Part shown: positions 9,628-37,833 of the stretch, one piece after another
Layout: the number at the start of each line of letters is the position of its first letter
Numbering within the stretch: position 1 is the stretch's first letter
Origin: Caldifarciminota bacterium
GTDB lineage: Bacteria > Hydrothermota > UBA3072
NCBI GenBank assembly: GCA_016930175.1
Contig: JAFGHJ010000018.1
Coordinates: forward strand, 37,625-101,624
Reading direction: 5' to 3'
Length of the DNA: 64,000 bases
Notes under the pieces: generated by a model
Told to the model about the DNA's origin: nothing
Databases searched by the model: none
Seen by the model: only the letters and a program-made list of their open reading frames with translations
Position numbers and translations under genes: made by a program

Positions 9628-10113
9628 ATGGAGATTCCTGTGTCATATTTTTATAAAATAAAGTATCGATTATTATTTATGGTGGTTTTTCTTTTTATCT
9701 CAAGTGAATTATATGGGCAGGAGTATTCTTTTCCTGAAATCAAAGAGATTTTTCTCAAAGAACGACCGCAAACAGGTGATCTTGCAATTCGGGAGAAATG
9801 TTTTGGTAGTATAGACGATCTTATTATGGGAACCTTTCCACCCCTCCATCCCTATATTGAACCATTTTACACATCTATGATGCAGAAAGCGCTGTTAGAA
9901 ATCGAAAATGAGGTTGTAACAGAAGGAGCAACTATATGGCAGATATATAATCACGGCTTTGTGGTGAAGACGCCTTCTGTGATTTTTGGTTGCGATTTGT
10001 ATGATTCAAATAATCTTAAGGTTTTTTCGTATGATGATTGCGGCAATCAAAGCAGAACATACGCGGAAACCACTGTAGCTAAAAAGAAAAATCGAAATTG
10101 TATTTGGTTTTAA
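9628..10113 (+). CDS. secreted hypothetical, possibly N-terminal fragment of an MBL-fold protein
   Basis: signal peptide; ATIWQIYNHGFVVKTPSVIFGCDLYD resembles the start of metallo-beta-lactamase-fold domains, then non-matching tail. Confidence 0.4.
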   Translation: MEIPVSYFYKIKYRLLFMVVFLFISSELYGQEYSFPEIKEIFLKERPQTGDLAIREKCFGSIDDLIMGTFPPLHPYIEPFYTSMMQKALLEIENEVVTEGATIWQIYNHGFVVKTPSVIFGCDLYDSNNLKVFSYDDCGNQSRTYAETTVAKKKNRNCIWF

Positions 10114-10267
10114 AATTAACCTGAACCTTTTAAATACTGTAACACAGAGAACACAGGGATTTTTTGTCGGTTTTCAATCGAAACCCGAAACACGAAGTTT
10201 TTAAATAGTTAGTCTGTTTTTTTACGCACTAACGCACTAACACACTAACAAAACTTTCAACTACGAA

Positions 10268-11578
10268 CTACCTCATACCTTCATAATGATCAACAAGCAT
10301 ATTAAGTATATCTTCCGGCCATATGTCCCGGACATCTTCATACTCTTGCGTATTAGAAGAAAGTACATCCAGGAATAAATTAAACTTATCTATAACTTCG
10401 GTTGGGTTTTCTGTTACTGTTCCATCCAGATAATCCCTGAAAGTCTGTTTAAAAGGTTCCCATCCTATTTCTTCTTTTATCCAGCAGAACCAAGTGGTTG
10501 GAGCAAGATCATTATCTGGATCGCCATCGTTTATATTCTTTTCATATAGCCTTTCCCAGAAATCGTAAATTTCTTCACCCTGAAAATAGCCGAATTCTGT
10601 CGGTACTTTAGCATCTAACATTTCGACGACGTAAGTGAGTTTAAAATTTGCCCAATGTTCAGCATCAAAGTTCCAGCGTGCATCTATGTCATAATCGTGC
10701 CCAATCTCATGTATTATTCCAAAGGACCAGTGACCATCATTTTCAATACTTTCCAGTTCTTCCCCTACCCACTGTTGATTCCATTTTATCGGGTTACCCG
10801 CGACAGCCCAGCCTCCCGGATTGTGCAGTACCGAAAGAATAGTTATTTTTTCCCCATTAAACGGATAACTTCCGACCAGATTATAATATTCTTCATACAC
10901 CAGATCCAGTTTGTCAAGCCAGTCATTCAATGCTTCATCTGATATTCTCTCCTTATCTGTTGGTTCAATTCGAAGAGTAAAGTATTTAGATTCGTAATTT
11001 AGCAGTTCCAGTTCATAAATCCCAATGTTATCAAAATAGGCTGTCCCTTTAACATAGCTGTCATAAGAACCTAATCTACAGTACAACATTATTGATTCAT
11101 AGGGAGCGAAGAAAGTATAACCTACTTCTTTCCAATCAGATTCGTATATATCCATCTCTCCGGAGGTCTGCAATACGTCCGGTATATTGGAATTTGCACC
11201 GCGAATGACTATATGAGCTATCTCTATATTAGCGGTATCAGTGGCGCCTTCAGCTAACCCTATATTCTCTGTCTTTATCCAGCCTATGCAATTATAATAA
11301 TTCGAAGGAGTTAGTTCCACGATAGTGTATAAACCCGAAAATTTAAATTCATTATTTATTATTCTAACACAGTTTGAATTATCTATTCCGCCGCTGTCTA
11401 AAAAACTAATTTCAGGAATCGAACCGTAACTGCGGATTGTCCAATCAGCTATGTCCGACTCAAAGTCTTCAAAAAAAATAGGTTCGTCATCATCGTCGTT
11501 ATGATTCTGGCTAAGAGAGCAAGATAATAACGTAATAACAACTATTGAAATCATTAATAGGATATTCTTTTTATTCAT
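10268..11578 (-). CDS. lipoprotein with putative zinc peptidase domain (HEIGH; M60-like)
   Basis: lipobox LLSCS; GIIHEIGHDYDIDARWNFDAEHWANFKL (HExxH plus downstream Glu). Confidence 0.55.
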   Translation of the reverse strand: MNKKNILLMISIVVITLLSCSLSQNHNDDDDEPIFFEDFESDIADWTIRSYGSIPEISFLDSGGIDNSNCVRIINNEFKFSGLYTIVELTPSNYYNCIGWIKTENIGLAEGATDTANIEIAHIVIRGANSNIPDVLQTSGEMDIYESDWKEVGYTFFAPYESIMLYCRLGSYDSYVKGTAYFDNIGIYELELLNYESKYFTLRIEPTDKERISDEALNDWLDKLDLVYEEYYNLVGSYPFNGEKITILSVLHNPGGWAVAGNPIKWNQQWVGEELESIENDGHWSFGIIHEIGHDYDIDARWNFDAEHWANFKLTYVVEMLDAKVPTEFGYFQGEEIYDFWERLYEKNINDGDPDNDLAPTTWFCWIKEEIGWEPFKQTFRDYLDGTVTENPTEVIDKFNLFLDVLSSNTQEYEDVRDIWPEDILNMLVDHYEGMR

Positions 11579-11669
11579 GGCAGCCTCCTTTATGGTTTAG
11601 ACCTAGCTGTAAGTTTTGATGTTCCACGATTATAATACATATATTAATTCTGCCAATGACGGTTTTTAC

Positions 11670-11880
11670 TTTGCGGTCGGTAAGTTATAGGAAAGACGGA
11701 GGATCGCAGACGGTAGACCGGTTATGGAAATTCGGGAAATGGGTTTTTGTCTTTTCTAAACCCTAAACCCCATATCCTAAATCCTAAATATGCTATTCAA
11801 CCTAGATTCGTATAATCCTCTGCTACAAACGAAGAACTGAAATCTTATTGCTGTCGGCGGTCAGCTTTTCGTTTGTGTTT
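11670..11880 (+). repeat. composite intergenic repeat block
   Basis: GGTCGGTAAGTTATAGGAAAGACGGAGGATCGCAGACGGTAGACCGGTTATGG...CAACCTAGATTCGTATAATCCTCTGCTACAAACGAAGAACTG. Confidence 0.8.
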
Positions 11881-11896
11881 ACAACTATCGCAAAGC

Positions 11897-13441
11897 TTAT
11901 TTAACGGTAATTATCTTGCCTCTGTATGTCTTTATATTACCTTCTAAGACCTCAATCAAGTATATGCCGGTCCCTTTTAGTTCGGGATTTATTAAATTTT
12001 CTCCTGCGTTCATAAATTGAGGTCCGATTTTATCGACCAGTCTGCCGCTAATATCGTATATCCTGAGTTCGATGTAACCGGCATGGGGAACCGAGAGCAG
12101 CAGAGTTTCACTTTTAAACAGTATTTCAGGATAAACAGAGAAACTTCTTATTTCAGCATCTTTTTCTTCTATGCCGGAAACCCATGGTGCGTCGAAGTAC
12201 AGATTTTCACCTACGTATCCCGAATAAATGACACCTCCGCCGCTTTCAGGTGCGCCCGGAGAATAAACAACCCTGGGGGCTGCTCCGCGAGGCCAGGGGT
12301 GAGCCATGTGCTCATTTATAACCTGGTCTTCATTCCATGTTCCCGGGTTACTTCCGGCTGACCATGTCCAGTGGATATCCCTGGCGTCACCTCCGTTATC
12401 ATAAATCCACGCCATATTCACATATTGATTAGGCGACACTTTATTAAATTCTATGTCTCCCCAGTATTCAGGAGTAGATGTTGTTGCAATGGGAGTGGAA
12501 GGCCAGGATAAAGGATAGTATGCATCTATTGAATCGGGATGAGGAACATAGTGTACATATAAGTCGTTCTGGACTCCGGGACCGATTCGCGGGCTAGAAA
12601 TCCATATTGCCGGATTATTTACATCGTGTGATGCAGCAATATGCGGGTCTCCGTCTCTCACCGAATTATTGGTGATTAATTGCGACCATGCCCAGTCTGC
12701 ACCCCCATTTGTACTATAAAAGATTTTAATTTCAAAACTGTCCTGAATAAACGGGTCCGAGAAATTTCTGTTTTTAATATAAGACAAATAATAATTAGAT
12801 GGTGGACCCCATGCGATTGAAAATTCCTGGCGGGAACTAATTGGAGTGCTGAAACCATAAGGTAAGAAAGACCAATTTTCACCATAATCCGTTGATCTGT
12901 AACATTTAATCCAGTAAATCGCATCAGGAGATGTACTGCTGGGGGTAGCTCCGGCGAACACCATCGAATAATCATCTTCGATAGATCTTACCACGTCAAA
13001 ACCTGTTTGTTCGACATTAACAGTATCTATTCTGAACCCCTGACCGGGACCCGAAAAATCACCAGGTATTTTCAATACATAGGGAAAGCTGTCAAGGGGA
13101 TTAACAAAGAAGAAGTAAAGGTAATTATGCAGTGGTTCGCCGACAATAATATTCATTTTTGATATCCTTCCGAAAGAGGCAGTTTCGTGCCTCTTTTCCC
13201 ATGACATTCCGTGATCGGATGAAGTATAGAAACAAATTGGATAAGCAGTTGAATCCTTCTGGAATCCGAGATACATAGTTCCGTCCATCGTATAATCGAC
13301 ATCGAAACAGGTAATTTTTCCCTCATATATCATTATATCGTTATCCCATCTCTGACTTATCGCATTCATAGGTATAAAAATTAAGAAGACAGTCAATATA
13401 GTTGAGAATACATATTTATTGTACAATAACATACAAAACAC
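11897..13441 (-). CDS. secreted BNR/sialidase-like protein with T9SS-type C-terminal sorting domain
   Basis: signal peptide; STDYGENWSF, STNGGADWAWSQL Asp-box-like motifs; C-term ELRIYDISGRLVDKI...GIYLIEVLEGNIKTYRGKIITVK. Confidence 0.65.
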   Translation of the reverse strand: MFCMLLYNKYVFSTILTVFLIFIPMNAISQRWDNDIMIYEGKITCFDVDYTMDGTMYLGFQKDSTAYPICFYTSSDHGMSWEKRHETASFGRISKMNIIVGEPLHNYLYFFFVNPLDSFPYVLKIPGDFSGPGQGFRIDTVNVEQTGFDVVRSIEDDYSMVFAGATPSSTSPDAIYWIKCYRSTDYGENWSFLPYGFSTPISSRQEFSIAWGPPSNYYLSYIKNRNFSDPFIQDSFEIKIFYSTNGGADWAWSQLITNNSVRDGDPHIAASHDVNNPAIWISSPRIGPGVQNDLYVHYVPHPDSIDAYYPLSWPSTPIATTSTPEYWGDIEFNKVSPNQYVNMAWIYDNGGDARDIHWTWSAGSNPGTWNEDQVINEHMAHPWPRGAAPRVVYSPGAPESGGGVIYSGYVGENLYFDAPWVSGIEEKDAEIRSFSVYPEILFKSETLLLSVPHAGYIELRIYDISGRLVDKIGPQFMNAGENLINPELKGTGIYLIEVLEGNIKTYRGKIITVK

Positions 13442-13649
13442 CTCCTTGTAAAAGGTTTTTTACAGTTTAAACTATATCCAAATATTCCTTATTTTTCCCT
13501 GATTCTACTATAAACTCGGCTTCGCTAATCCGCCTGCAATTTTCGTCATACTCAAAAATGTATCGTAATCAATATATATATTATATCAAAAAAGAAGATA
13601 TGTGTCAAGGATGCGGTAGTTTGGCCCCGTTGATACTCGCTAGAATCAT

Positions 13650-14510
13650 TTACTTTAAAAATTCCTTAATTATTTTCTCAAATTCATCCGGTTTGCTCCA
13701 GGAAGGAATATGTCCTCCTGTTTCGAAATTATATACCCTGGCGTTAGGATAACGCTCATATAATTTGTTTTTTAGTACCTTTATTGTTGATTTATCATCT
13801 TTTGAATTAACAATAAGCACTTTACCCTTATACGGATCAGGTAAGCTTGAATAGTTTTTCATATAATCCCATTGATTATTTTGTAAACTAAGATAATCGT
13901 CATACGTATAACAGTTAAAAAAAGTATCATTTAAGAACGCCTTCCAAAATTCTTTATTCGATTCCGGTACTGCAAGCAGAGAAATCAATTGTTTTTTGTA
14001 TAAATTCAAAGCCGTTTCTGGTTTAAACAGAGAAAAGACTTTACAATTCAATTTAAAGAAATCTGTAATGAATTTTGTCGTGCCCGAGAGGGTATTAATA
14101 AGGATAAGTTTTTTAACTCTGCGAGGATACAAATCCGCATAACATTGGGCTACAATACCCCCGAATGAGTGTCCCATAACATAGAGCCGATTAATTTTTT
14201 TATTTTTAATTATTTCCTCAATTCCATTCAGAATATTCTTGATTTTATTAAGTTTGGGGTATGATGGGGCTATAATTCTATAATCTTTTTTCAAAACATC
14301 TATATAAGAAAATGATGAAAGGTAAGATTTTCTCAGCCCGCCCGAAAAGATAAGAATTGTTTCCTTGCCCGTGCCTGTGTCAATGATATCCCATTCTTTA
14401 TCTTTTATTGTTATCTTTTCAAGAGTATGATTTTTTAAAAAATATTTAATTCTATTTATATCTTCTTTTTGAACTCGACTGTATAATTCTTCATTTATAT
14501 AGAATATCAT
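13650..14510 (-). CDS. alpha/beta hydrolase
   Basis: LYVMGHSFGGIVAQCYADLYP nucleophile elbow; GGHIPSWSKPDEF catalytic His. Confidence 0.85.
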   Translation of the reverse strand: MIFYINEELYSRVQKEDINRIKYFLKNHTLEKITIKDKEWDIIDTGTGKETILIFSGGLRKSYLSSFSYIDVLKKDYRIIAPSYPKLNKIKNILNGIEEIIKNKKINRLYVMGHSFGGIVAQCYADLYPRRVKKLILINTLSGTTKFITDFFKLNCKVFSLFKPETALNLYKKQLISLLAVPESNKEFWKAFLNDTFFNCYTYDDYLSLQNNQWDYMKNYSSLPDPYKGKVLIVNSKDDKSTIKVLKNKLYERYPNARVYNFETGGHIPSWSKPDEFEKIIKEFLK

Positions 14511-14734
14511 TTAAAAAAACCTCCTGCTTAGCTCTAAATATCTTTTGAATTTTAGATGTTTCCGGATAAATGTCAAGGAATATATTATCTCACACGGAGA
14601 ACACAGAGATTTTTTTGTTGTTTTGACTAATGACTAGTGACCAGTGACTGATGACTCAATTATTTGAAATTTTTAGTGTTGACATAAACAATAAAAGATA
14701 TTACCATAACTGTAACAACAAGGAGTTAGAATTT

Positions 14735-15022
14735 ATGTTAAAAGAAATCAAGGAAAAGTTAAGAAAAATACAACCTGAACTTCATGCAAAATACGGAGTC
14801 TCAAGAATTGGGGTTTTTGGTTCTTTCTCTAGAGGTGAAGAAGTCAGGGATAGTGATATAGATATTTTAGTCGAGTTTGATAAGGATATCGACATATTTG
14901 AATATATAGATTTAAGGGATTTTCTTTCTGAAAATCTATCAAGAAAGGTAGACCTGGTAACAAAAGATGCAATAAAACCTCTAATTAAAGATGATATAAT
15001 GAAAGAAGTTGTTTATCTATGA
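14735..15022 (+). CDS. mntA: MntA-type minimal nucleotidyltransferase antitoxin (type VII TA)
   Basis: GSFSRGEEVRDSDID matches GS-x10-DxD; overlaps hepT; start at ATG 14735 with AAGGAG. Confidence 0.85.
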   Translation: MLKEIKEKLRKIQPELHAKYGVSRIGVFGSFSRGEEVRDSDIDILVEFDKDIDIFEYIDLRDFLSENLSRKVDLVTKDAIKPLIKDDIMKEVVYL

Positions 15023-15360
15023 GAGAGGCAAATCTTTACTTAAGCGATATACTCCAATCGATAGAAAAGATCTTAAAATTTACAGAAGGAATGAATTTTG
15101 AAGATTTCAAAAACAATGATTTAGTTTTTGATGCTATAGCAAGAAACTTCGAGATAATTGGGGAAGCCTCGATTCAGCTTTCAGAAGAAATAAAATCTAA
15201 ATATGTTGATATACCCTGGCAAAAAATGAGATCGATGAGAAATATAGTAGCCCATGAATACTTTGGAATAGATAAAAAGATTATCTGGACAACTATTCAA
15301 AAATCAATTTCCGAACTTAAAGATAAAATAAGTAATATTTTAAAAGATATAAAACCGTAA
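15019..15360 (+). CDS. hepT: HepT-like (DUF86) ribonuclease toxin
   Basis: RNIVAHEY matches R-x4-H-x-Y; paired with MntA. Confidence 0.87.
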   Translation: MREANLYLSDILQSIEKILKFTEGMNFEDFKNNDLVFDAIARNFEIIGEASIQLSEEIKSKYVDIPWQKMRSMRNIVAHEYFGIDKKIIWTTIQKSISELKDKISNILKDIKP

Positions 15361-15437
15361 ATTCAAGCAAATCATTTGTTATAAAGATTTTAAATTGTTG
15401 GTTGTTGGGATAGCTGGTTGGCTGATACAGTATTAAC

Positions 15438-15470
15438 GAAAAGAAGCGGGGAATACCCGCCTCTTTTATT
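15438..15470 (+). terminator. Rho-independent-like terminator
   Basis: AAGAAGCGGGGAATACCCGCCTCTTTT hairpin followed by T-rich run. Confidence 0.65.
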
Positions 15471-15907
15471 CTTCTCAGGTTCTTATATTTAATTTAAGTT
15501 TTTTGCTATCTGGTATTCTGCTCTATATTGTTCGAATCTTTTATTTATTAATTTCATTTTTAAAACCTCCGTTTATTTATCAAGTTAGACGCGGATGGGT
15601 AGGATTTGTTTCAGAAAAAAATTATTTCGCACAGAGACACTAAGGCACTGAGTTAATTATGAATGTTTAATGTTGAATTAATTCTTAAAGTTAGAGTGTT
15701 AGCGCGTTAGAGGGTTAGGGAGGGAACAAAAACTAAAAATTCTGTCAGGAAGTCCTCGATAAAATTAAAGAATTGGAGAAAAAACCCCCCCCACAACAAA
15801 TAATCCACTCCCAAACTTCACATTTTTGTCCGTAACGAAAATGTGAAATTTGGTAATTGTATTATGTAAACTTTTCTATCAGTGAATCTGTGGTCGAATC
15901 TAGCCAC

Positions 15908-16009
15908 TTGACAAATCAAAAAAATCCGAAAAATAACAAAAGGATTGATTTAATGTGTGATAAATATTTTACTCTTCACGATTTGCCGCAGGATAGAATT
16001 GTTAAATAA
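15908..16009 (+). pseudogene. duplicated radC promoter/5' end remnant (18-codon truncated ORF MCDKYFTLHDLPQDRIVK*)
   Basis: TTGACA at 15908; ATG at 15953; nearly identical to the 5' end of radC at 17017 then stop at 16007. Confidence 0.75.
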
Positions 16010-16214
16010 GGTATTGCGAAATGTTAAATGTTGAATATAGAGCATTTTATATAAGTATTTGAAAAACAAATAGAAAAGAATATATTATGTTAAATGTTGG
16101 GAATTCTGATTGCAAATTTTAGCTATCTTAGAAAAAACCTAAAAATAAAGAAGAATGGAATCAAAACTGTACCATCATGTCCCTGAACTCTCCCGGGAAG
16201 GAAATAGTGATAAC

Positions 16215-16243
16215 TTGACAAATATTCGGGATTTCTGTATTAT
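16215..16243 (+). promoter_or_regulatory. sigma70-like promoter for PIN module
   Basis: TTGACA-17-TATTAT immediately upstream of ATG 16255. Confidence 0.65.
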
Positions 16244-16254
16244 TTAAAAGAGAT

Positions 16255-16707
16255 ATGAAGATATATATGGATGTATGTTGTTTGAATAGGCCGTTCGACG
16301 ACCAAACACAAGATAGGATTCATCTGGAATCTGAAGCTATATTGACAATTTTATGGCATTGCGAGAGAGGAGATTGGAAATTAATTCATAGTGAGATAAT
16401 TGATTTAGAAATATTTAAAATACCTGATAAATACCGAAAGGAAAAGGTGTATCATTTATCTAAAATCTCTAAGGTTAAAGTTGAAGTTAATAAGCAGGTA
16501 TGGGATAGATATGAAGAATTGGAAGAAATTAATCTTACTCATTTTGATGCTTTGCGTATAGCTTGTGCTGAAATAGGGAAAGCTGACATTTTCTTAACTA
16601 CAGACGATGATATAATAAAAAAAATTAATAAGAGTAAGATTGAATTAAGAGTAGATGTAAAAAATCCTATTAAGTGGTTAATGGGGGTAGAAAATTATGG
16701 GGATTAA
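16255..16707 (+). CDS. PIN-domain protein (putative toxin)
   Basis: MKIYMDVCCLNRPFDD N-term Asp; LTHFDALRIACAEIGKADIFLTTDDDII acidic PIN motifs. Confidence 0.8.
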   Translation: MKIYMDVCCLNRPFDDQTQDRIHLESEAILTILWHCERGDWKLIHSEIIDLEIFKIPDKYRKEKVYHLSKISKVKVEVNKQVWDRYEELEEINLTHFDALRIACAEIGKADIFLTTDDDIIKKINKSKIELRVDVKNPIKWLMGVENYGD

Positions 16708-16900
16708 AGCTAAAACTCCAAATGAGATAAGGAAAGAAGGAATAGAGATCCTTTCCAGGGAACTTGGACCTATTGAGATGGTCAGGTTTTTACAACAATA
16801 TGATATTGGTGAGGGAGATTACACGAAAGAACGTCATAAATGGCTGCGAAAAAACTCCGGTAAAGATATAAAAGAAGAATTAAAGAAACTTAAGAAATAG
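16697..16900 (+). CDS. small protein partner of PIN protein (putative antitoxin)
   Basis: 67 aa, overlaps PIN stop; IKAKTPNEIRKEGIEILSRELGPIEMVRFLQQYDIGEGDYTKER. Confidence 0.65.
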   Translation: MGIKAKTPNEIRKEGIEILSRELGPIEMVRFLQQYDIGEGDYTKERHKWLRKNSGKDIKEELKKLKK

Positions 16901-17016: not shown

Positions 17017-17724
17017 ATGTGTGACAAATATTTTACTCTTCACGATTTGCCGCAGGAGGATAGACCAAGGGAACGGTTGAAAGAGGTCGGGGTCGATAAC
17101 CTTTCAATTCAGGAACTTCTGGCACTGGTAGTCGAAAAAGGCAGAAAAGGAAAGAGTGTTCTCTCTGTTTCTCAAAACTTACTGGCAAGGTTCGGAAATC
17201 TTGCCAAAATGAAGGAAGCATCGATCGAGGAATTGCAGGAAGTCGATGGGATTGGTTTTGCTACCGCGTGTAAATTGAAAGCGGCTTTAAAACTGGGAGA
17301 GAAAGCTTTAAGTAAACATAATAAATTCGATTATCAGATTACTACACCGAAAGATGTGTTTGAATTGCTCAAAAATGATATGGGAAATAAAAAGAAAGAA
17401 CATTTTAAAATATTGTCTTTAACTACGAGAAAAAAACTTATTAGTATAGATGATATATCGATCGGTATTCTGGATAGTAGTCTCGCGCATCCGAGAGAAA
17501 TATTTAAACCCGCCATTCAAAACTCCGCCGCTTCGATTATATTGGTTCATAATCACCCATCAGGTGATCCAACTCCGAGTAAAGATGATATAAAGATGAC
17601 GGAGAGGCTAATCGAAGCAGGAAAAATCATAGGAATAGAAATCGACGACCATGTGATTATTTCGGATAATTTATTCGCCAGCCTCCGAAGCGACCCCAAA
17701 ACATCGAGGTTGTGGAGAAAATAA
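17017..17724 (+). CDS. radC: RadC-family JAB/MPN protein
   Basis: LPQEDRPRERL, HhH EVDGIGFATACKLKA, ILVHNHPSGDPTPSKDDIKMTERL. Confidence 0.92.
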   Translation: MCDKYFTLHDLPQEDRPRERLKEVGVDNLSIQELLALVVEKGRKGKSVLSVSQNLLARFGNLAKMKEASIEELQEVDGIGFATACKLKAALKLGEKALSKHNKFDYQITTPKDVFELLKNDMGNKKKEHFKILSLTTRKKLISIDDISIGILDSSLAHPREIFKPAIQNSAASIILVHNHPSGDPTPSKDDIKMTERLIEAGKIIGIEIDDHVIISDNLFASLRSDPKTSRLWRK

Positions 17725-17754
17725 AATTTTGGGCGTTTTTATTTTCTAATATGT

Positions 17755-18459
17755 ATGGCTAAAATAGTCGGGCATAGAGGCGCGGCAGGATACGCACCGG
17801 AAAATACCATTCTCTCCTTTAAAACGGCTATCGATATCGGGTGCGATGAAACCGAGTTGGATGTGAGATTATCAAAGGATAGTAAGGTCGTTGTGATTCA
17901 TGATGAAGAAGTATCACGGGTTACCGATGGTTCGGGTTTCGTGAATGAAATGAGCCTGGCGGAATTGAAAAAATTGAATTGCCCTGAAAAACAAAAAATC
18001 CCGACTTTGCAGGAAGTTATCGATTTCTGTAAAGGTAAGATAGGTCTCCTGATAGAGCTGAAAGTACCGGGAACGCCGAAGAAAGTCAATCGAATAATCT
18101 TAAAAAATAAAATCATGGGAAATGTTGCCGTGATTTCCTTTCATTACGAATTGCTGCGCGAGATTAAAAAATTAAATCCGAAGTTAAGAGCAGGTCTGTT
18201 GTTTGAAAAATGTTCCGAAGAAATATGGAAATTGGCAGAAGAGATACCGATCGATTTTATTGGTCCGCGGAAAGACATCGTTACCAAAGGAATTGTCGAC
18301 AGAGCTCATAAAATGGGTAAGACAGTATATGCTTACCATGTCAACGATGAAAATACCGGAAAAGATTTTTTGTCTTTAGGAGTAGATGAAATCGGTACGG
18401 ACTTTCCAAAATTGTTTAGAAGTGACCTCAAAACCTCGGGATTATGGAGGAAAACTTAG
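17755..18459 (+). CDS. glycerophosphodiester phosphodiesterase
   Basis: GHRGAAGYAPENTILSFKTAIDIGCDETELDVRLSKDSKVVVIHD. Confidence 0.9.
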   Translation: MAKIVGHRGAAGYAPENTILSFKTAIDIGCDETELDVRLSKDSKVVVIHDEEVSRVTDGSGFVNEMSLAELKKLNCPEKQKIPTLQEVIDFCKGKIGLLIELKVPGTPKKVNRIILKNKIMGNVAVISFHYELLREIKKLNPKLRAGLLFEKCSEEIWKLAEEIPIDFIGPRKDIVTKGIVDRAHKMGKTVYAYHVNDENTGKDFLSLGVDEIGTDFPKLFRSDLKTSGLWRKT

Positions 18460-18720
18460 GTCTTAGGTATTTGGTTTTAGGTTTTAGGTTTTAGAAAACA
18501 TAGTCACCAGTCCTCAGTCTCTAGTCACCGGTCAAAGAAACAAACAAAAGGGAGAATAGGGTTAGGCCTTAAAACATGAAAAGATTTCAAAATAATCGCG
18601 GAAAATCAGCTCGCAGCTTACGGCCCACAGCCAACCGCTAAAAAACAACAAAAAAACTTCTTGTCTTTGTGTGAACTAGAGTTTCGAGTTTAAAGTTTCG
18701 TGTTTCGAGTAACAAAAAAA
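18460..18720. repeat. tract of several degenerate word families
   Basis: GTCTTAGGTATTTGGTTTTAGGTTTTAGG; CACCAGTCCTCAGTCTCTAGTCACCGGTC; CAGCTCGCAGCTTACGGCCCACAGCC; GTTTCGAGTTTAAAGTTTCGTGTTTCGAG. Confidence 0.75.
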
Positions 18721-18755
18721 TCTGTGATAATCTGTGTAATCTTGTGGTTCATTCC

Positions 18756-18784
18756 TTGACTTTTATCTTGCTTTTTAATATTAT
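18756..18784 (+). promoter_or_regulatory. sigma70-like promoter of three-gene cassette
   Basis: TTGACT (18756-18761), 17-nt spacer, TATTAT (18779-18784). Confidence 0.55.
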
Positions 18785-18900: not shown

Positions 18901-19614
18901 ATGGGTGATAAGAAAAGTTCAAAATCTTCGGACAAAAGAAAGCCTGAAGCTCAAGAGCTTGTACTCTGGCTATATAGAGATTACGCGACAAGGGTAAGCA
19001 AAAATCTTTGGCCCTGGGAAAAAGCGCGGTGGTACGAGTTAGTGTTTTGCATACTTGCCACCATTGGGGAACCCGAAGTTATGTCAGCCACTATACGTCA
19101 TCTCACAACAATTATGGCAAGGTTGGGTCTTCTGGAATTGAGTTCATTAGCCGGGCTTAAATTTCCCGGAAATCCGCAAAAATCAGAATCTCCAATACTT
19201 ACTACAATCGATACTTTGTTACAAAGGGTGGGTTTTACCCCTGAAAAAGCAAAATTTGCGTTAAATATAATCTGTACAGCGGCTTCCAGTATAGGGAAAA
19301 AGTATGACGGTAAGGTGCAAAATTATCTTCGAAAGTATGGAGACCACATGCTTGAACACATTAATGAGGATTTTGGTATCGATGGATTTGATGAGGCGCC
19401 AAGAGCCATAGCTATTTGGTTGCAGAACACCTTGAATATGCCCGTTCCCGCATCAAATCCGTTTGCCGACCAGGCGTGCGAAAGCCTGGGTGTAAAATAC
19501 GAAGAACTGGTAAAAGCAGCTTATAAACAGGATATAAACGTTGCTTTATTGGACGACGCCCTGAGGGCGTACTGGGGGAGGAGGATAAAAGATAAGCAAG
19601 GCAGTAATGTCTGA
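18901..19614 (+). CDS. alpha-helical protein of unknown function, weak HhH-GPD/EndoIII-like pattern
   Basis: ORF 237 aa from ATG 18901 with AAAGGAGG; LLQRVGFTPEKAKFALNIICTAASSIG...IDGFDEAPRAIAIWLQNTLNMPVPASNPFADQACESLGV. Confidence 0.7.
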   Translation: MGDKKSSKSSDKRKPEAQELVLWLYRDYATRVSKNLWPWEKARWYELVFCILATIGEPEVMSATIRHLTTIMARLGLLELSSLAGLKFPGNPQKSESPILTTIDTLLQRVGFTPEKAKFALNIICTAASSIGKKYDGKVQNYLRKYGDHMLEHINEDFGIDGFDEAPRAIAIWLQNTLNMPVPASNPFADQACESLGVKYEELVKAAYKQDINVALLDDALRAYWGRRIKDKQGSNV

Positions 19615-19648
19615 GTGGATTTTTGCGAATTAAAAGAGAGGAGTAATA

Positions 19649-21481
19649 ATGAGGAAGAAGATTTATTTCTTAGGCGGTTTTCTAAGTAAGGAAGAAAGGA
19701 AGGAGAAATTTGATATTTATTCCAAGAAATTAAAGGCTGAATACCGTGATTTTGCAGAGGACAACGAACGTTTCTCAGAATTTGAGTTTGTTCACAAGCC
19801 CAAGTGCGATAGACAAGAGTTAACCAAAATCTTAAAAAGCGAAGATACGTACGGCATTATATGGTTTTCGCATGGCGATGGTAAAGGCCGTATTATGGCT
19901 TACCATAAATGGATCGATGATGAGCCTTGGAAAGTTTGGAATGTTGGTGAAGATGGAGAGCGTAAGATAAACCCACAAGTATATAATGAAACTTTAGTAA
20001 ATCCCAAAGATTTGGAAGGTAAAGCCGGTCTCAATGTGAAGTTTTTTGGAGTTTTTGGCTGTGGAGCCGAAAAACTGAAGGAAGCATGGGAAAAAACAGC
20101 CCCAGGAGGTTTAGTGAAAGCGCATGCTGGCGATCTATTGAAAACTGAATACGAAAAATGTTCTAACATCGATCATTTTGGAACCTGGATTAAAGGAGAT
20201 AGCCAGAAAATTTTTGAGCATATTCTCAAAAGAACTCCTATGGTACCCGACGCGTCAATATACACTCAAGACCCGGGAGATGCGGGAGTTGTGCCTGCCG
20301 GCGGAATGCAGTCTCCTTCTAAAAAAGCACCTGATGCATCAATATACGACCAGAAAGATGCGGGAGGACCGAGTTCTTCAAAAATGCCTGACGTTTCAGA
20401 CAGGATAAAAATTTTGGGATATGAGGATATTGAGGATTCAGGTCAGTTCAAAGGACCTAACAGATTATCGGAATTCGCTGAAGGGTTAAAAGGAGGAAAT
20501 GAACCGGAGTTTTCTATAGTACCTGAATTATCGGACAGGATAAAAATATTGGATGATACAGTGGCAACCGGTCCCAGGATAAATCAATTCGACGAAATTC
20601 CTAGATTATCCGATTACGCAGAAGGGCTGGATAGAGGGAGACAAATGGAAGGCCCCCCAGGTATTGCACATGGAGAATTTTCTGTAATTCCTGATTATGC
20701 AGACAGGATTAATATATTGGATAATATTCCGGGAAGAAATCCCGATATGGAAGTTTTCAGAGGGCCTAACAGATTATCCGATTACGCAGAAGGGCTGGAT
20801 AGAGGGAGACAAATGGAAGGCCCCCCAGGTATTGCACATGGAGAATTTTCTATAATTCCTGACTCTTCACTCAGTAATATGTTGACTAATTATGATCATC
20901 TTTGGGGGATTGACAAATCGTCCGACAATGCAGAAGCGTTGAAGATAGCGAGGCAAATAGGGCCGCACTCAACCGAGACGCCATTCGGAGGAAGTGCTGT
21001 AACTCACGCTTTTTTGGAGAATAGAAATATTTTAGATGGTATTCGAGAGAGAAGCCACAATATGGATCATTTTGAATCACCTAACAGATTATCCGATTAC
21101 GCAGAAGGGCTGGATAGAGGTAGACAAATAGGAGGCCCCCCAGGTATTGCACATGGAGAATTTTCTATAATTCCTGATTTTTCGCAAAGGATGAATTTGG
21201 GAGGGAATATAGACGGAGGTCTTCACGGTGGACATCAGTTAGGAGAACCTTTAACGAAACAATGGGAACATAATGGATGGGACAGACCCTTTCAAAGTGG
21301 ATCCGGAACATTTCAGAATATGGGTCCTCAACAATCAATTAATACGCCTTTCCCTTCTGCACATCAGCCCCTTGGTCAATTATCCGCAGGCACTTTCCAG
21401 AATATGGCGCCCGTTCAATCCCATGCTGGTTATACTCCCAATCTACTTCAACAGCTTGGTAGCTCCCTTCAAAGGGGATAA
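19649..21481 (+). CDS. putative caspase/CHAT-like protease domain fused to repeat region and Q/P-rich tail
   Basis: 610 aa; YGIIWFSHGDGKG (His75) and VKFFGVFGCGAEKLKEAW (Cys138) in caspase-like order; repeats RLSDYAEGLDRGRQMEGPPGIAHGEFSIIPD. Confidence 0.65.
   Translation: MRKKIYFLGGFLSKEERKEKFDIYSKKLKAEYRDFAEDNERFSEFEFVHKPKCDRQELTKILKSEDTYGIIWFSHGDGKGRIMAYHKWIDDEPWKVWNVGEDGERKINPQVYNETLVNPKDLEGKAGLNVKFFGVFGCGAEKLKEAWEKTAPGGLVKAHAGDLLKTEYEKCSNIDHFGTWIKGDSQKIFEHILKRTPMVPDASIYTQDPGDAGVVPAGGMQSPSKKAPDASIYDQKDAGGPSSSKMPDVSDRIKILGYEDIEDSGQFKGPNRLSEFAEGLKGGNEPEFSIVPELSDRIKILDDTVATGPRINQFDEIPRLSDYAEGLDRGRQMEGPPGIAHGEFSVIPDYADRINILDNIPGRNPDMEVFRGPNRLSDYAEGLDRGRQMEGPPGIAHGEFSIIPDSSLSNMLTNYDHLWGIDKSSDNAEALKIARQIGPHSTETPFGGSAVTHAFLENRNILDGIRERSHNMDHFESPNRLSDYAEGLDRGRQIGGPPGIAHGEFSIIPDFSQRMNLGGNIDGGLHGGHQLGEPLTKQWEHNGWDRPFQSGSGTFQNMGPQQSINTPFPSAHQPLGQLSAGTFQNMAPVQSHAGYTPNLLQQLGSSLQRG
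20603..21170 (+). repeat. intragenic near-identical repeat, 3 copies (starts 20603, 20771, 21086)
   Basis: AGATTATCCGATTACGCAGAAGGGCTGGATAGAGGGAGACAAATGGAAGGCCCCCCAGGTATTGCACATGGAGAATTTTCT repeated with few or no changes. Confidence 0.9.
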
Positions 21482-21494
21482 AAAGGAGGTTACT

Positions 21495-22019
21495 ATGCCC
21501 GATGTCGTCATTAGACTTCGAATAGGGAAACAAATTATCCGTATGGCTTTACCTTCGGATGTTCCAATCGACGATTTGCTCAATGAATTGCTTTCCAAAT
21601 TCCGTTTGCCTACCCGGGAAAAAGACGGCAGTCCGATCAATTATCAAGTGCGTCATGTGAAGAGTGGAAATATACTTACGAAAGACGCAACACTGGGTGA
21701 AGAAGGTATTTCAAAAGACGATACTGACGATACTTTTGAACTCGTGATAAAAACACCTCGTATTAATGTCACTGAAGGAGTAAGGGAGGGACAAACCCGG
21801 CAAACAACTTTAACGAGAAATAAGACATATGTGCAAGAGGGTGGTAACGACTCTCCGGACATTCTCTTTAATATAGGATTCTTTTTAGTTTACTGTATAG
21901 CCGGGGGATTATTAGGAAGTTTGGCAGTAAGATTAGTAACGGGGGGTAATATTCTTATCGGCAGTATCATAGGTTTCATCATAGGCTTAATTATTTGGTT
22001 TATAAGGGAAATTTACTAA
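21495..22019 (+). CDS. ubiquitin-like (YukD/EsaB-type beta-grasp) domain with C-terminal transmembrane hairpin
   Basis: ATG 21495 with AAAAGGAGG; VVIRLRIGKQIIRMALPSDVPIDDLLNELLSKF...GNILTKDATLGEEGISKDDTDDTFELVIK; two TM segments at C-term. Confidence 0.65.
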   Translation: MPDVVIRLRIGKQIIRMALPSDVPIDDLLNELLSKFRLPTREKDGSPINYQVRHVKSGNILTKDATLGEEGISKDDTDDTFELVIKTPRINVTEGVREGQTRQTTLTRNKTYVQEGGNDSPDILFNIGFFLVYCIAGGLLGSLAVRLVTGGNILIGSIIGFIIGLIIWFIREIY

Positions 22020-22359: not shown

Positions 22360-22542
22360 ATGAGAAAACTATACCGTTCTAAGGATTATCGTGCGATTGC
22401 TGGAGTTTGTGGGGGATTAAGCGAGTATTTTAATATCGATCCGATAATTTTTCGCATGATCTTCATTGCCTTATTGGTCAATGGAGGTGCGGGTATAATA
22501 ATTTATTTCCTTATGTGGATTTTTGTGCCAGCTAAACGTTGA
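22360..22542 (+). CDS. PspC-domain protein
   Basis: MRKLYRSKDYRAIAGVCGGLSEYFNIDPIIFRMIFI. Confidence 0.92.
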   Translation: MRKLYRSKDYRAIAGVCGGLSEYFNIDPIIFRMIFIALLVNGGAGIIIYFLMWIFVPAKR

Positions 22543-31881: not shown

Positions 31882-34800
31882 ATTAAGGGGAAGGACGCTG
31901 ACAGGACAAAAAAGCAGCTTCTAAAAGAACTTGAGAAAGAACGAGCAAAAGTCTCAAGACTTCAAGAAGAACACAAAATTTTAAAAGAAGTAAAAAAAGA
32001 GCTAAAGGCAGAGCGGGATAAATTTGAGTGCATAATTAGCTCTATGTCAGATGGATTGGACATCATCGATAAAAATTACAGGATATGCTTTCAAAATAAG
32101 GTATTAAAAGACAGGTTTGGGGATCTTACAGACAAGGTTTGCTTCGAAGAATACATGAAGCGCCAGTCTCCTTGTGAATTCTGCCTGATAAAAAAAGCTA
32201 TCAAGACAGGAACCACGCAGAAAGTGGAATTAACGGCTCCTGACGACAGGGATTATGAGTTAACATCGATACCTTTCAAAGATATCGATGGAAAAACTAA
32301 GGTGATTGAAATTGTCCGCGACATAACCGAACGGAAAGAAAGGGAAAAAGAATACAAAAATTTAATCAATGGAATGAATGATACTGCTTTCGTTATTAAC
32401 TTTGAAGGAAAATTTGTCGATGTCAATGATACCGCTGTCGAGTTCCTGGGGTATTCAAGAGAGGAACTGCTTACAATGGGACCGACTGATATTGATCCTG
32501 TTCTTTCCGCAAAAGATATAAGGGGGCTCATTGAAGGAATGAAGATGGGCGAAAAGCAGGTCTTTGAAACTGCGCATAAGACTAAATCGGGGGAAGTAAT
32601 TCCTGTCGAAGTCAGCTCGAGCCTGATATCTTATCATGGTAAACCAACGATTTTAAGTATTGCAAGGGATATTCGCGGACGCAAAAAATCAGAAGATGCT
32701 ATTCGAAAAAGCGAAGAACAACTCTCACTAATTTTTAACAACACTTCTGATTTGCAGATACTTTTTTCCGCCGCAGAGGATGGAGAATTCAGGATAGTGA
32801 ACGCAAATAAAACTGCTGTCGAGACCGCCAGAAGATTAGGGTTTGGTGTTTCCAGGGAAGATTTTTTAGGGGAAAATGCAAAGGTAATAGTTAGAAACTT
32901 TCTCAATCCAGTCCAGAGAAGTCCTGAAGAAACCCTTAAAACCTTCGAGCAGGCAGCAGAAACAGGCAAGCCGGTTTTCTACGAAGAGTCCTATGCCTTC
33001 GGAAACAAACGTTACAGCGCAGAAGTCACATTAGCCCCGGTGTTAGATGAAAAAGGGAAATGCACATATTTACTTTGGTCTTCCCACGACATAACCGAAC
33101 GTAAGAAGGTACTGAAAGAACTGCAGGAAAGCGAGGAACGATTTCAGAGGGTAATCGAAAAGCTTCCGCTAGGCATTCTTCTTCACAACCTTGACGGTTC
33201 TATCTTAATGGCAAATAAAGCATCCTGCGAATTGGGAGGATATACAAAAGAGGAACTTCTCAATCTGACAGTGGCGGATCTGGACCCTCAAAGTATATCA
33301 AGAGACGACAGAAAAAAACTCTGGACAAAATTAAAAAAGGGAGGGTCAAGTAGGATAGAATCGGCCGTCAATCGCAAGGACGGCTCTATGTTTCCTGCCG
33401 AAATATACATTAACGCAGTTAACATAAAGGGCACTCCTATGATATTGGCTGCAGTTACTGATACCACAGAACGTAAGAAAACGCTAGAAAAACTTAAGGA
33501 AAGCGAGGAACGATTTCAGGCGGTAATTGAAAATCTCCCTGATGAAATCTTTGTTCATAACCTTGACGGGAAATTCATATTGGTAAATAAAGCATCCTGT
33601 GTAAAGACCGGATATTCAAAAGAAGAACTTTTAGGTATGGAAGTGGAAGATATCGACCATGAAAGCGTCAAAAGAGATGATAGAAAAAACATCTGGGAAA
33701 GACTTCAAAAGAAAGGCGGCTTCGAGCGAATAGAAACCACTCACTATCGTAAAGACGGCTCCTCATATCCGGCTGAAATATACTTCGGCACTGTTACTTT
33801 TAAAGGAAGTCCCATGATAATAGGTATAGCCCATGATATAACCGAGCGCAAGAAGGCAACGGGAGAACTCAAGGAAAGCGAAGAGAGATTTCAAACAGTT
33901 ATTGAGAATCTGCCTCACGGAGTCTGTCTTCACGATCTAGACGGCTATATGACGCTCGTAAATAAAGCCTTATGCAAAATGACGGGTTATTCCGAAAAAG
34001 AACTCTTAAACATGAACGTACAGGAGGTCGACCACGAATGTGCTACCAGAGACGACAGACATAACCTTTGGTTGAAATTAAATAAGGGAGGGCATGACTA
34101 TGTTGAATCTACTCTATATCGAAAAGATGGGTCTGCCTTTCCCGGAGTCATATATCTAAACGCAGTTGATTTGAAAGAGCAACCTATGATTTTAGCAATT
34201 ACGCAAGACATCACCGAGCGCAAGAAGGCAATAGAAAAATTAAAAGAAAGCGAAGAAAGATTTCAAACGATAATCGAAAATCTTCCGCACGCCGTTTCCG
34301 TACATGATCTTGACGGAAACTTTGTATTGGTAAATGAAGCGTTATGCGAACAAACCGGTCATACGAGAGATGAATATATGAAAATGAAAGTAGAGGAGGT
34401 TGACCGTCTCAGCCAGACACGTGACGATAGAAAGAAAATCTGGTTGAAATTGAAAAAAGGCGGCCATACTCATTTTGAATCGAGACTCTCCTGTAAAAAC
34501 GGATCCGGCTATCCGGTTGAAATATATATCAACTCTATTACTCTTGAAGGCAAACCCATGATATTAGCTATTGCCCAGGACATCTCAGACAGAAAGAAAG
34601 CACTGGAAAGTCTACAGAAAAGCGAAGAAAAGTATAGAAACCTGTACGAAAGCATGATAGAAGCTTTCTCGCGCACCGATATGAAAGGCAACATAATTGA
34701 ATTCAATAAACAATATTTAGATATGCTCGGATATACCGGGGATGAGATAAAAAATTTGAAGTATACCGATTTAACTCCGGAAAAATGGCACGAAATGGAA

Positions 34801-36111
34801 GCTAAAATAATAAATAACCAGATTATCAAAAGAGGATACTCTGACGTTTATGAAAAGGAATACATAAGAAAGGACGGTACTTTATTTCCTGTAGAGCTAA
34901 GGGTTTTTTTACTCAAGGATGATGACGGCAAACCGAACGGCATGTGGGCGATTGTGCGCGATATAACCGAGCGAAAGAAAATAGAGGAAGAGTTACGAAA
35001 AATAGAGCGTCTTGAATCACTTGGTATTCTTGCCGGAGGCATTGCTCACGATTTCAACAATCTTTTGACCGGAATACTTGGGAACCTTTCACTCGCTCAA
35101 ATGACAGAGGGAGAAGATTTTAATAATATATTAGAAGAAGCCAAACAGGCATCCATCCAGGCTAAAAACTTAACCCGACAGCTTCTCACATTTTCAAAAG
35201 GCGGAGAACCCATCAAGGGAAAAGTCTCTATAGAAGATATAATCCGAGAATCTTCAGAATTCAGCCTGCATGGTTCAAATGTTAGATGTGAATTCGATTT
35301 CGCAGAAGATTTATGGAAAGTAGAAGTTGATAAGGGGCAAATGTCTCAGGTCATAGACAATCTTGTAATAAATTCAAATCAGGCGATGCCAGAGGGCGGA
35401 AAGATACATATACAAGCCCAGAATATTACCCTCCAGAAAGAAAATTTACTATATCTTCCGGAAGGCAAATACGTAAAAATAACTCTCCGGGATGAAGGAA
35501 TCGGGGTGCCTGAAGAATATCTTTCGAAAATATTCGACCCATACTTTTCTACAAAGCAGGAAGGAAGTGGGTTAGGCCTTGCAACAGTATATTCTATTAT
35601 TCAGAAACATGAAGGTTATATCACAGTACAATCTAAAGTGGGCGAAGGAACCACCTTTTTTATCTATCTTCCGGCGTTAGAAGAGAAAATATCGGAGAAA
35701 GGAGATAAAAAGGCGAGCAGACGGGCTCTAAAAGGTGAAGGCAGAATACTAGTAATGGACGATGAAAAAATAGTCCGTAAAGCTGTTGGGGGAATGTTGA
35801 GAAGACTGGGATATACAGTAGAGTTTGCCGAAAACGGAGAGGAAGCTATATTTAAATATAAAGAAGCCAAGAATTCAAAAAAGCCCTTTAATGCAGTTAT
35901 TCTTGATTTAACAGTACCCGGCGGAATGGGAGGCAAAAAGACGATAGAGAAGCTACTAAAGATTGATCCAAATGTGAAGGCTATAGTTTCCAGCGGATAT
36001 TCCACAGATCCGGTAATGGCTAACTATAAAAAACACGGATTTAAAGCTGTAGTAGCAAAACCCTTTGACCTTAAAGAACTGAATGAAGCAATTAAAGAGG
36101 TTCTGGAGTAA
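31882..36111 (+). CDS. multi-PAS hybrid sensor histidine kinase with C-terminal receiver; probable ATT start
   Basis: ITERK-type PAS units; GIAHDFNNLLTGILGNL H-box; GSGLGLATVYSIIQKH G-box; receiver ILVMDDEKIVRK..AVILDLTVPGG. Reading frame open from 31882 with AAGGAGG at 31870-31876; first ATG only at 32044. Confidence 0.88.
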   Translation: MKGKDADRTKKQLLKELEKERAKVSRLQEEHKILKEVKKELKAERDKFECIISSMSDGLDIIDKNYRICFQNKVLKDRFGDLTDKVCFEEYMKRQSPCEFCLIKKAIKTGTTQKVELTAPDDRDYELTSIPFKDIDGKTKVIEIVRDITERKEREKEYKNLINGMNDTAFVINFEGKFVDVNDTAVEFLGYSREELLTMGPTDIDPVLSAKDIRGLIEGMKMGEKQVFETAHKTKSGEVIPVEVSSSLISYHGKPTILSIARDIRGRKKSEDAIRKSEEQLSLIFNNTSDLQILFSAAEDGEFRIVNANKTAVETARRLGFGVSREDFLGENAKVIVRNFLNPVQRSPEETLKTFEQAAETGKPVFYEESYAFGNKRYSAEVTLAPVLDEKGKCTYLLWSSHDITERKKVLKELQESEERFQRVIEKLPLGILLHNLDGSILMANKASCELGGYTKEELLNLTVADLDPQSISRDDRKKLWTKLKKGGSSRIESAVNRKDGSMFPAEIYINAVNIKGTPMILAAVTDTTERKKTLEKLKESEERFQAVIENLPDEIFVHNLDGKFILVNKASCVKTGYSKEELLGMEVEDIDHESVKRDDRKNIWERLQKKGGFERIETTHYRKDGSSYPAEIYFGTVTFKGSPMIIGIAHDITERKKATGELKESEERFQTVIENLPHGVCLHDLDGYMTLVNKALCKMTGYSEKELLNMNVQEVDHECATRDDRHNLWLKLNKGGHDYVESTLYRKDGSAFPGVIYLNAVDLKEQPMILAITQDITERKKAIEKLKESEERFQTIIENLPHAVSVHDLDGNFVLVNEALCEQTGHTRDEYMKMKVEEVDRLSQTRDDRKKIWLKLKKGGHTHFESRLSCKNGSGYPVEIYINSITLEGKPMILAIAQDISDRKKALESLQKSEEKYRNLYESMIEAFSRTDMKGNIIEFNKQYLDMLGYTGDEIKNLKYTDLTPEKWHEMEAKIINNQIIKRGYSDVYEKEYIRKDGTLFPVELRVFLLKDDDGKPNGMWAIVRDITERKKIEEELRKIERLESLGILAGGIAHDFNNLLTGILGNLSLAQMTEGEDFNNILEEAKQASIQAKNLTRQLLTFSKGGEPIKGKVSIEDIIRESSEFSLHGSNVRCEFDFAEDLWKVEVDKGQMSQVIDNLVINSNQAMPEGGKIHIQAQNITLQKENLLYLPEGKYVKITLRDEGIGVPEEYLSKIFDPYFSTKQEGSGLGLATVYSIIQKHEGYITVQSKVGEGTTFFIYLPALEEKISEKGDKKASRRALKGEGRILVMDDEKIVRKAVGGMLRRLGYTVEFAENGEEAIFKYKEAKNSKKPFNAVILDLTVPGGMGGKKTIEKLLKIDPNVKAIVSSGYSTDPVMANYKKHGFKAVVAKPFDLKELNEAIKEVLE
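33121..34611 (+). repeat. tandem PAS-encoding repeat, four units of 372/375/372/372 bp
   Basis: L(Q/K)ESEERFQ(R/A/T)(V/I)IE(K/N)LP...DITERKK units begin at 33121, 33493, 33868, 34240. Confidence 0.9.
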
Positions 36112-36189
36112 AAAAAAGAGATCCAAAAACTTCTTATAGCTACACTCCTAATCTTGCAGAAATTTAATTTACACTTATATTTTAAGACC

Positions 36190-37833
36190 ATGAGGAAAAT
36201 TATCCCGTTAACTTTAATTATATTACAAATACCGCTGTTTTTATCCTCCGCCACTTTTTATCTGGACCCCCAAGAAGGAAGTATGGTAAATGACGGAAGT
36301 TCCGAACACCCATGGACAACTGTTCAGGAAGTTCTCGATTCCAATCTTGTCGAAACCTACGCACCTGTTAATTATCCATACAGCGAGGGCGACCCTTTAA
36401 TGCTTGTAAATGAAGGCGCACCGGTAAAAGCAGGAGATACTTTAATCTGTAGGACAGGTCATTACGGGCCACTTCACATATCGAGAAAATTCAATAACGA
36501 TTATATTACTATCCGCGCGGAAGAAAATAACATCCCTACTTTCAAAAATATTCGTTTTTCCGGAGCAAGATACTGGCATCTCAAGGGTCTTACCGTAACA
36601 CCTTCAAGCGCCCCCGAATACGAAAACACTACACTAATGTCTATCGAATGGCATAATTGGTCCGGGCCTTCCACCTACATAATAGTAGAAGACTGCGATT
36701 TATATTCGGTCGAAGATGCCTCCTCGTGGTCCGCCGAAGACTGGGACGAGTTATCATGCACCGCAATTTCCTGTCAGGGTAAACATGTAATTATACGGAA
36801 CAACAACTGCAAAAATGTAAATTTCGGCATCTCTTCAAGTAACGATTCCTGCCTGGTGGAATACAATACAGTAGAAAATTTTGCCGGTGACGGACTCAGA
36901 GGCTTAGGCAATTACAACACCTTCCAGTATAACATAGTAAGAAATTCATACGACGTTAACGCCAATCACGACGACGGGTTTCAATCATGGTCAGTAGGAG
37001 AAGGCGGGGTTGGCACTGATACTGTATGGGGCGTGATCTTAAGAGGCAACACAATCATAAATTACGAAGACCCCAACCAGCCCCACAGAGGTACCTTACA
37101 GGGAATCGGCTGTTTCGATGGATTTTACGCCGATTGGATTGTCGAAAACAACGTTGTTGTTGTCAATCATTACCACGGAATAACTTTAAGCGGGGCGGTC
37201 AACTGCCGTATAATCAATAACACAGTGGCAGATAGAGACACAACAGACTCAGATATAAGCCCCTGGATAAGAGTCGGAAACCATAAGGACGGTTCCGCAA
37301 GTGTCGGCTGCGTAATCAGAAACAATATTTATTACAGGTCTTTATCGATCGATTCGCCGCAAACAGAAGACCACAACTTAAGGGTAAGAGATTATGACAG
37401 TAACTTCGTGAATTTCGGACAGTTCGACCTTCGTCTAAAAGAAGGAAGCCCCGCAATTGACGCGGGCGCAAGTGAACTTGCACCGTCGATAGACATAAGG
37501 GGAATTTCACGCCCCCAGGGGTCTTTGTACGATATAGGGGCTTACGAATATACGACTGACGAAGAGAGTAACTTTTTTAGCCCCTTAAGTATCTATCCCA
37601 ATCCTTTCAACACTTTCACAGATATAACTTTTACCCTGCACACGTACGGAGACGTTCGCCTCGAAATATATAACTCTTCAGGCTCAAAAATCAAAGAATT
37701 TGCCGATTACAGCATGACTCCGCAGATGTATCATTATACTTTTTACAGGGAAAACTTCCCAAGCGGCGTTTATTTTATATATTTGAAAGTCAACAATCAG
37801 ATCGCAGCGGAAAAAGTTATTTTGATTAAATAG
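36190..37833 (+). CDS. secreted right-handed parallel beta-helix protein with T9SS-type C-terminal sorting domain
   Basis: signal peptide; IIRNNNCKNVNFGISS, YNTVENFAGDGLRG beta-helix coils; C-term LSIYPNPFNTFTDITFTL...GVYFIYLKVNNQIAAEKVILIK. Confidence 0.85.
   Translation: MRKIIPLTLIILQIPLFLSSATFYLDPQEGSMVNDGSSEHPWTTVQEVLDSNLVETYAPVNYPYSEGDPLMLVNEGAPVKAGDTLICRTGHYGPLHISRKFNNDYITIRAEENNIPTFKNIRFSGARYWHLKGLTVTPSSAPEYENTTLMSIEWHNWSGPSTYIIVEDCDLYSVEDASSWSAEDWDELSCTAISCQGKHVIIRNNNCKNVNFGISSSNDSCLVEYNTVENFAGDGLRGLGNYNTFQYNIVRNSYDVNANHDDGFQSWSVGEGGVGTDTVWGVILRGNTIINYEDPNQPHRGTLQGIGCFDGFYADWIVENNVVVVNHYHGITLSGAVNCRIINNTVADRDTTDSDISPWIRVGNHKDGSASVGCVIRNNIYYRSLSIDSPQTEDHNLRVRDYDSNFVNFGQFDLRLKEGSPAIDAGASELAPSIDIRGISRPQGSLYDIGAYEYTTDEESNFFSPLSIYPNPFNTFTDITFTLHTYGDVRLEIYNSSGSKIKEFADYSMTPQMYHYTFYRENFPSGVYFIYLKVNNQIAAEKVILIK

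Follow-up and report, generated by a model that had tools for sequence, protein, structure and literature searches.

A rare helical protein gene adjoined by exchangeable partner genes in a Caldifarciminota bacterium and three distant genomes

In a 64,000-nucleotide stretch of a Caldifarciminota bacterium genome (contig JAFGHJ010000018.1, positions 37,625 to 101,624; hereafter the window), we analysed a cassette of three consecutive genes, ORF1, ORF2 and ORF3 (Table 1). Gene-neighbourhood comparison of four loci from distant genomes indicates that the conserved unit is ORF1 together with an exchangeable downstream partner, and not the protease/ubiquitin-like trio that had originally been predicted. 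ORF1 is conserved and closely paired at all four loci, each time with a different partner, and we consider the chances about evenly balanced that ORF1 is a constant adaptor or chaperone, that the downstream gene is a swappable effector and that the third gene contributes a variable membrane part.

Table 1 Positions of the cassette genes and of the features proposed within them (window coordinates)
Feature	Position	Strand	Basis
ORF1 (237 aa): all-helical member of an undescribed family with a WLQNTLNMP block; proposed adaptor/chaperone for the product of the next gene	18901..19614	+	Homologues in three genomes
ORF2 (610 aa): N-terminal alpha/beta-looking domain and repetitive tail; proposed effector	19649..21481	+	
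ORF2 N-terminal domain (about residues 1-197), candidate caspase-order motifs His-Gly ... Gly-Cys	19649..20239	+	Low-confidence model
ORF2 His75 codon, context IIWFSHGDGKG	19871..19873	+	
ORF2 Cys138 codon, context FFGVFGCGAE	20060..20062	+	
ORF2 low-complexity acidic tail (pI 4.9, net charge -23, four copies of RLS[DE][YF]AEGL)	20240..21478	+	
ORF3 (174 aa): YukD/ubiquitin-like domain and two-helix membrane hairpin	21495..22019	+	PF08817, hydrophobic segments
ORF3 stretch matching YukD (residues 10-72)	21522..21710	+	Pfam
ORF3, two predicted membrane helices	21873..22004	+	Hydrophobic segments

Re-reading of the sequence matched exactly the earlier description of three co-directional ORFs preceded by strong SDs (AAAAAGGAGG, AAAGAGAGGAG and AAAAAGGAGG 5' of ORF1, ORF2 and ORF3, respectively) and separated by gaps of 34 nt (ORF1-ORF2) and 13 nt (ORF2-ORF3). 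The promoter predicted along with them, TTGACT-17-TATTAT, is indeed present 5' of ORF1 (18756-18784) but does not exceed chance, the window holding 13 promoter-like sites against a mean of 9.7 (sd 2.9) in shuffled DNA. The genes neighbouring the cassette are RadC, GDPD, PspC and GNAT, and no MoxR, vWA, FtsH or Ubl-conjugation gene adjoins it. The RadC and GDPD proteins (17017-18760) share a near-identical C-terminal peptide (KTSRLWRK/KTSGLWRKT), and the DNA behind the two genes (about 18443-18760) belongs to a family of short repeats scattered over the genome; 3' of ORF3, a PspC-domain protein (22360-22542; E 4.9e-24) has a DNA copy 88% identical elsewhere in the genome. Other parts of the window encode an MntA/HepT-type toxin-antitoxin pair (14651-15360; a nucleotidyltransferase, PF01909, and a HepT-like RNase, PF01934), a 150-aa protein that overlaps a 67-aa ORF (16255-16900; a PIN-type toxin-antitoxin look by eye, with no Pfam match), a 1355-aa sensor with many PAS domains, a histidine kinase and a receiver (32044-36111), and a protein that carries a C-terminal sorting domain of type IX secretion (36154-37833; PF18962, E 4.1e-8).

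Scanning 85,488 species genomes with ORF1 recovered three real homologues, all with the WLQNTLNMP block: one in an Omnitrophota MAG (L031; 56% identity over 208 residues), one in Nostoc spongiaeforme (L032; 45% identity) and one in the proteobacterial MAG SZUA-336 (L033; 35% identity). The four proteins align with 47 invariant columns, WLQNTLNMP included, and the family is present as one copy per genome in each of the genomes. A further candidate (L034) was rejected as a metallopeptidase with one 8-mer in common by chance. No further homologues were found in 147 genomes of the window's phylum, nor any beyond those already known in 388 cyanobacteria, among 316 genomes from the phylum of the Omnitrophota relative or in the class (91 genomes) and phylum (379 genomes) of the proteobacterial relative; matches in the window's phylum at E 0.04-0.1 were set aside as chance, the two loci inspected containing TPR-like and housekeeping-enzyme genes. 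ORF1 and its homologues had no match of any strength in Pfam, NCBIfam or PADLOC. As judged from these searches, the ORF1 family is rare, lies outside named families and is spread over distant genomes.

The first protein had been predicted to be helical, in agreement with an AlphaFold model built from the four-sequence alignment, which is all-helical (pLDDT 75); no TM-like segment was found in ORF1. In a Foldseek search of the PDB with this model, the top seven matches were all HhH-GPD DNA glycosylases (probability 0.77-1.00, best E 0.007), with TM-scores of only 0.29-0.36. Against an EndoIII/MutY profile, ORF1 reached an hhalign score of 28.6, above all 200 column shuffles (14.0 +- 2.6, maximum 22.6) and with the fold aligned in register; the probability of this alignment was 13%, its score is only slightly higher than the 25.2 that an unrelated single protein reaches against the ORF1 profile, and comparisons with MutY alone, or between single sequences, stayed at background level. 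The catalytic Lys and/or Asp that define the HhH-GPD glycosylases are not conserved, the position of EndoIII Asp138 being N/N/S/D in the four ORF1 proteins and the hairpin Lys being absent. We take the likeness to this fold, suggested by a predicted model and a profile comparison, as modest and as a lead. ORF1 could, on this resemblance, be a degenerate HhH-GPD glycosylase-like sensor of damaged or modified DNA that licenses the partner effector; we regard this as quite improbable, in view of the low TM-scores, the low hhalign probability, the score of the unrelated protein and the lost catalytic residues, and a cell-wall enzyme as partner, as found in Nostoc, would fit it poorly.

At each of the four loci, the next gene lies on the strand of ORF1 and starts 34 (window), 18, 14 or 1 nt downstream, and the N-terminal domains of the four partners have no significant pairwise similarity. 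Four independent genes that merely lie beside ORF1 would explain why the partner is different at every locus, but a same-strand neighbour at 1-34 nt in each of four distant genomes makes such coincidence very improbable. In the Nostoc partner, Tlde1_dom (E 9e-6) scores just below its curated cut-off, YkuD at its cut-off and LysM (E 2.4e-5) above its own, and an HG...SKGCI motif is present; similar plasmid proteins are annotated tlde1, and the predicted start of the protein has no obvious signal peptide by eye. Among the four partners, this one alone resembles the Tlde1 L,D-transpeptidase effectors, in its Tlde1_dom and motif, and differs from them in its LysM fusion and its pairing with ORF1; the window holds no such enzyme. 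Each of the Omnitrophota and proteobacterial partners has an orphan domain and, behind it, a long low-complexity tail that is strongly basic (whole-protein pI 11.2 and 11.7). The tails of these two of the three relatives' partners are comparable in kind to that of ORF2, whereas that of the Nostoc partner is mostly LysM and not disordered.

Net charge, given as ORF1/partner, is +3/-21 in the window, 0/+44 at L031, and -20/+21 and -17/+44 at the other two loci, which suggests, as far as calculated charges can, that the two proteins may form a direct complex; the L031 pair, with its neutral ORF1, is unlike the others. The core of the ORF2 repeat resembles a stretch of the L031 tail (RLSDYAEG/RLASYAQG; P<1/300, uncorrected for the nine comparisons made), and an unbiased test for shared tail sequence was weak for this pair (P 0.03-0.1) and gave nothing for the other tails. 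A common tail motif picked by eye, G[ST][LF][QR]..M, failed the unbiased tests.

The third gene also varies. At L033 it begins 8 nt after the partner and encodes two N-terminal hydrophobic segments followed by an nSTAND NTPase (E 4e-9); at L032 it is doubtful (a pentapeptide-repeat protein after an 83-nt gap), and at L031 there is no same-strand third gene close by. PADLOC models of known anti-phage defence systems matched neither ORF1-3 nor the relatives' partners, and on the proteobacterial nSTAND protein gave weak, unlikely matches only. The L033 region behind the ORF1 pair (9771-16597) continues from the membrane nSTAND NTPase to two genes on the opposite strand, one for a PspA/IM30 protein and one for a large protein that has an AAA-like P-loop. 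The original prediction had treated the helical protein, the protease and the ubiquitin-like protein as one conserved unit, and had named homologues that never co-occur as a trio as grounds for giving it up. Because the ORF1 homologues adjoin other partners, with no YukD or caspase-like gene beside them at any of the three relatives' loci, the trio is not the conserved unit, and across these four loci it never recurs. Nor does an 'NTPase-free variant' hold as a class, one relative (L033) having an NTPase as its third gene.

The second protein had been read as a caspase/CHAT-like protease, of which the order of the proposed catalytic residues stood; the searches neither supported nor refuted the fold. 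His75 and Cys138 of ORF2 are where they had been placed, in caspase order, a hydrophobic strand with His-Gly being followed by a later strand with Gly-Cys, as in the caspase/CHAT cysteine peptidases (clan CD). Unlike those enzymes, ORF2 has no profile or structural support, and the searches gave no homologue: we found no match up to E 1 in Pfam, NCBIfam or PADLOC (for Pfam, none up to E 10) and no relative in the PDB. When ORF2 was compared by hhalign with a profile built from caspase-family proteins of bacteria and a yeast metacaspase, the score stayed at shuffle level (z -0.2), the best short alignment happening to end on the His-Gly block. The single-sequence AlphaFold model of ORF2 is poor (pLDDT 43), a confidence at which a fold search is meaningless and the geometry of His75 and Cys138 is too uncertain to be read. 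The first 107 residues are modelled, with low confidence, as strand-helix-strand-helix-strand (67-74)-His75 and then short strands, a predicted order that, at this confidence, fits the caspase layout. ORF2 itself was the only member found in the 147 genomes of the phylum (1/147), and no relatives were recovered from plasmids, phages and viral contigs (in searches that mostly reach close relatives), from 85,488 genomes searched with the motif SHGxGKG, or from degenerate motif-steered searches, in which the synthetic alignments A1-A5 served only to steer the search patterns and carry no information on conservation. The profile tests of ORF2 use a single sequence and so have little power; the failed searches for relatives are likewise weak evidence because a single sequence reaches close relatives only. 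Caspase activity of ORF2 is a guess from motifs. The four RLS[DE][YF]AEGL copies described for the tail were located at residues 272, 319, 375 and 480; three of them are near-identical as DNA, which suggests recent duplication.

That the cassette is a conserved minimal NTPase-free switch, formed by the helical protein together with a caspase/CHAT-like protease and a ubiquitin-like membrane protein, would be in keeping with the motif and predicted secondary-structure order of ORF2, with the ubiquitin-like ORF3 and with the co-occurrence of caspase-like and Ubl proteins in published conflict systems (PMC7159879). We nevertheless hold this to be rather improbable: in searches that mostly reach close relatives, the trio was not found again in the phylum, in plasmids, phages or viral contigs, or in the 85,488-genome SHG-motif search, and the different partners of the ORF1 homologues and the lack of profile support for a caspase argue against it.

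The prediction that ORF3 carries a YukD/ubiquitin-like domain followed by a TM hairpin was borne out. Residues 10-72 match Pfam YukD (PF08817; E 2.3e-6, 28.7 bits, above the gathering cut-off of 27), and two hydrophobic segments, and only two, begin at residues 127 and 152; because of this match and these segments, ORF3 is supported, at the level of sequence, as a ubiquitin-like membrane protein. It shares its ubiquitin-like domain and membrane helices with the YukD/EccD proteins of type VII secretion, including a weak match to the EccD N-terminus (TIGR03920; E 0.0036, 16.2 bits, below the cut-off of 94.95). ORF3 falls outside the definition of EccD, however, as it misses this cut-off, has two membrane segments only and no multi-helix domain, and has no adjoining type VII genes. 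YukD was found in 2 of the 147 genomes of the window's phylum; in the other (G100, L004 1486-2798), consecutive ubiquitin-like, E2-like and JAB-like genes, recognised by eye, are probably a prokaryotic ubiquitin-type operon and not a type VII secretion locus.

The cell-wall character of the Nostoc partner makes export the main rival to the adaptor-effector reading, with ORF1 as a secretion chaperone, ORF2 as a toxin for neighbouring cells and ORF3 as a docking or immunity protein. A peptidoglycan-directed Tlde1/LysM protein with no obvious signal peptide by eye would fit such a route, as would type VII secretion parts as the closest named relatives of ORF3. We judge export possible but on the unlikely side, since secretion genes adjoin none of the four loci, this genome and the Omnitrophota genome lack the contractile sheath family PF04984 (present in the other two), and the second YukD locus of the phylum is of the Ub-E2-JAB-like kind. 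Contractile injection as a theme common to the four genomes was dropped, PF04984 being absent in two of them.

The MoxR-vWA, FtsH-ternary and EACC1-caspase systems combine a constant component with exchangeable effectors and membrane association (Kaur et al. 2020, PMC7159879). The cassette is like the EAD/EACC1-caspase and MoxR-vWA systems in its small constant part, swappable effectors, caspase-like and Ubl parts and membrane link, and unlike them in that no MoxR, vWA, FtsH or E1/E2/RING/JAB genes adjoin it and that ORF1 has neither a membrane helix nor a Pfam or PADLOC match. In EACC1-caspase systems a partner with one TM helix stands beside the caspase gene, whereas here ORF1 has no TM helix and ORF3 has two and a YukD domain; the genes that define MoxR-vWA and FtsH ternary systems are absent among the neighbours. 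Judged by title or abstract, none of the papers retrieved from a literature library for naming both YukD and caspase seems to describe such a system.

In the adaptor reading that we prefer, which draws on four loci (the third gene being absent at L031 and uncertain at L032), the soluble, helical ORF1 would bind the product of the gene immediately downstream, mainly through the partner's disordered and often oppositely charged tail, and would hold the partner inactive or position it. The partner would be the effector-like, variable part: in the window, a domain of alpha/beta appearance that may carry a His/Cys protease site, with a tail of four repeats; in Nostoc, an L,D-transpeptidase of the Tlde1 type joined to LysM; and at the remaining loci, two proteins with no assigned activity. 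The third gene would be the variable membrane part, a ubiquitin-like domain on a two-helix hairpin here and an nSTAND NTPase behind two N-terminal membrane segments at L033, which could anchor the pair at the inner membrane or serve as trigger or immunity. In its boldest form, which we think unlikely, ORF1 would represent a new adaptor family, whose fold may be that of a DNA glycosylase that has lost catalysis, and which would license exchangeable effectors (a protease, a cell-wall enzyme and others) across distant phyla as an undescribed compact conflict or stress system.

Together, these results make the WLQNTLNMP block a handle for finding effector genes whose products have no recognisable domain, a situation seen in two of the three relatives. 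Should ORF1 control its partner, the family would constitute a compact adaptor-effector system present in several distant lineages, and may offer a test bed for studying how a single constant protein can recognise partners alike in little but their tails.
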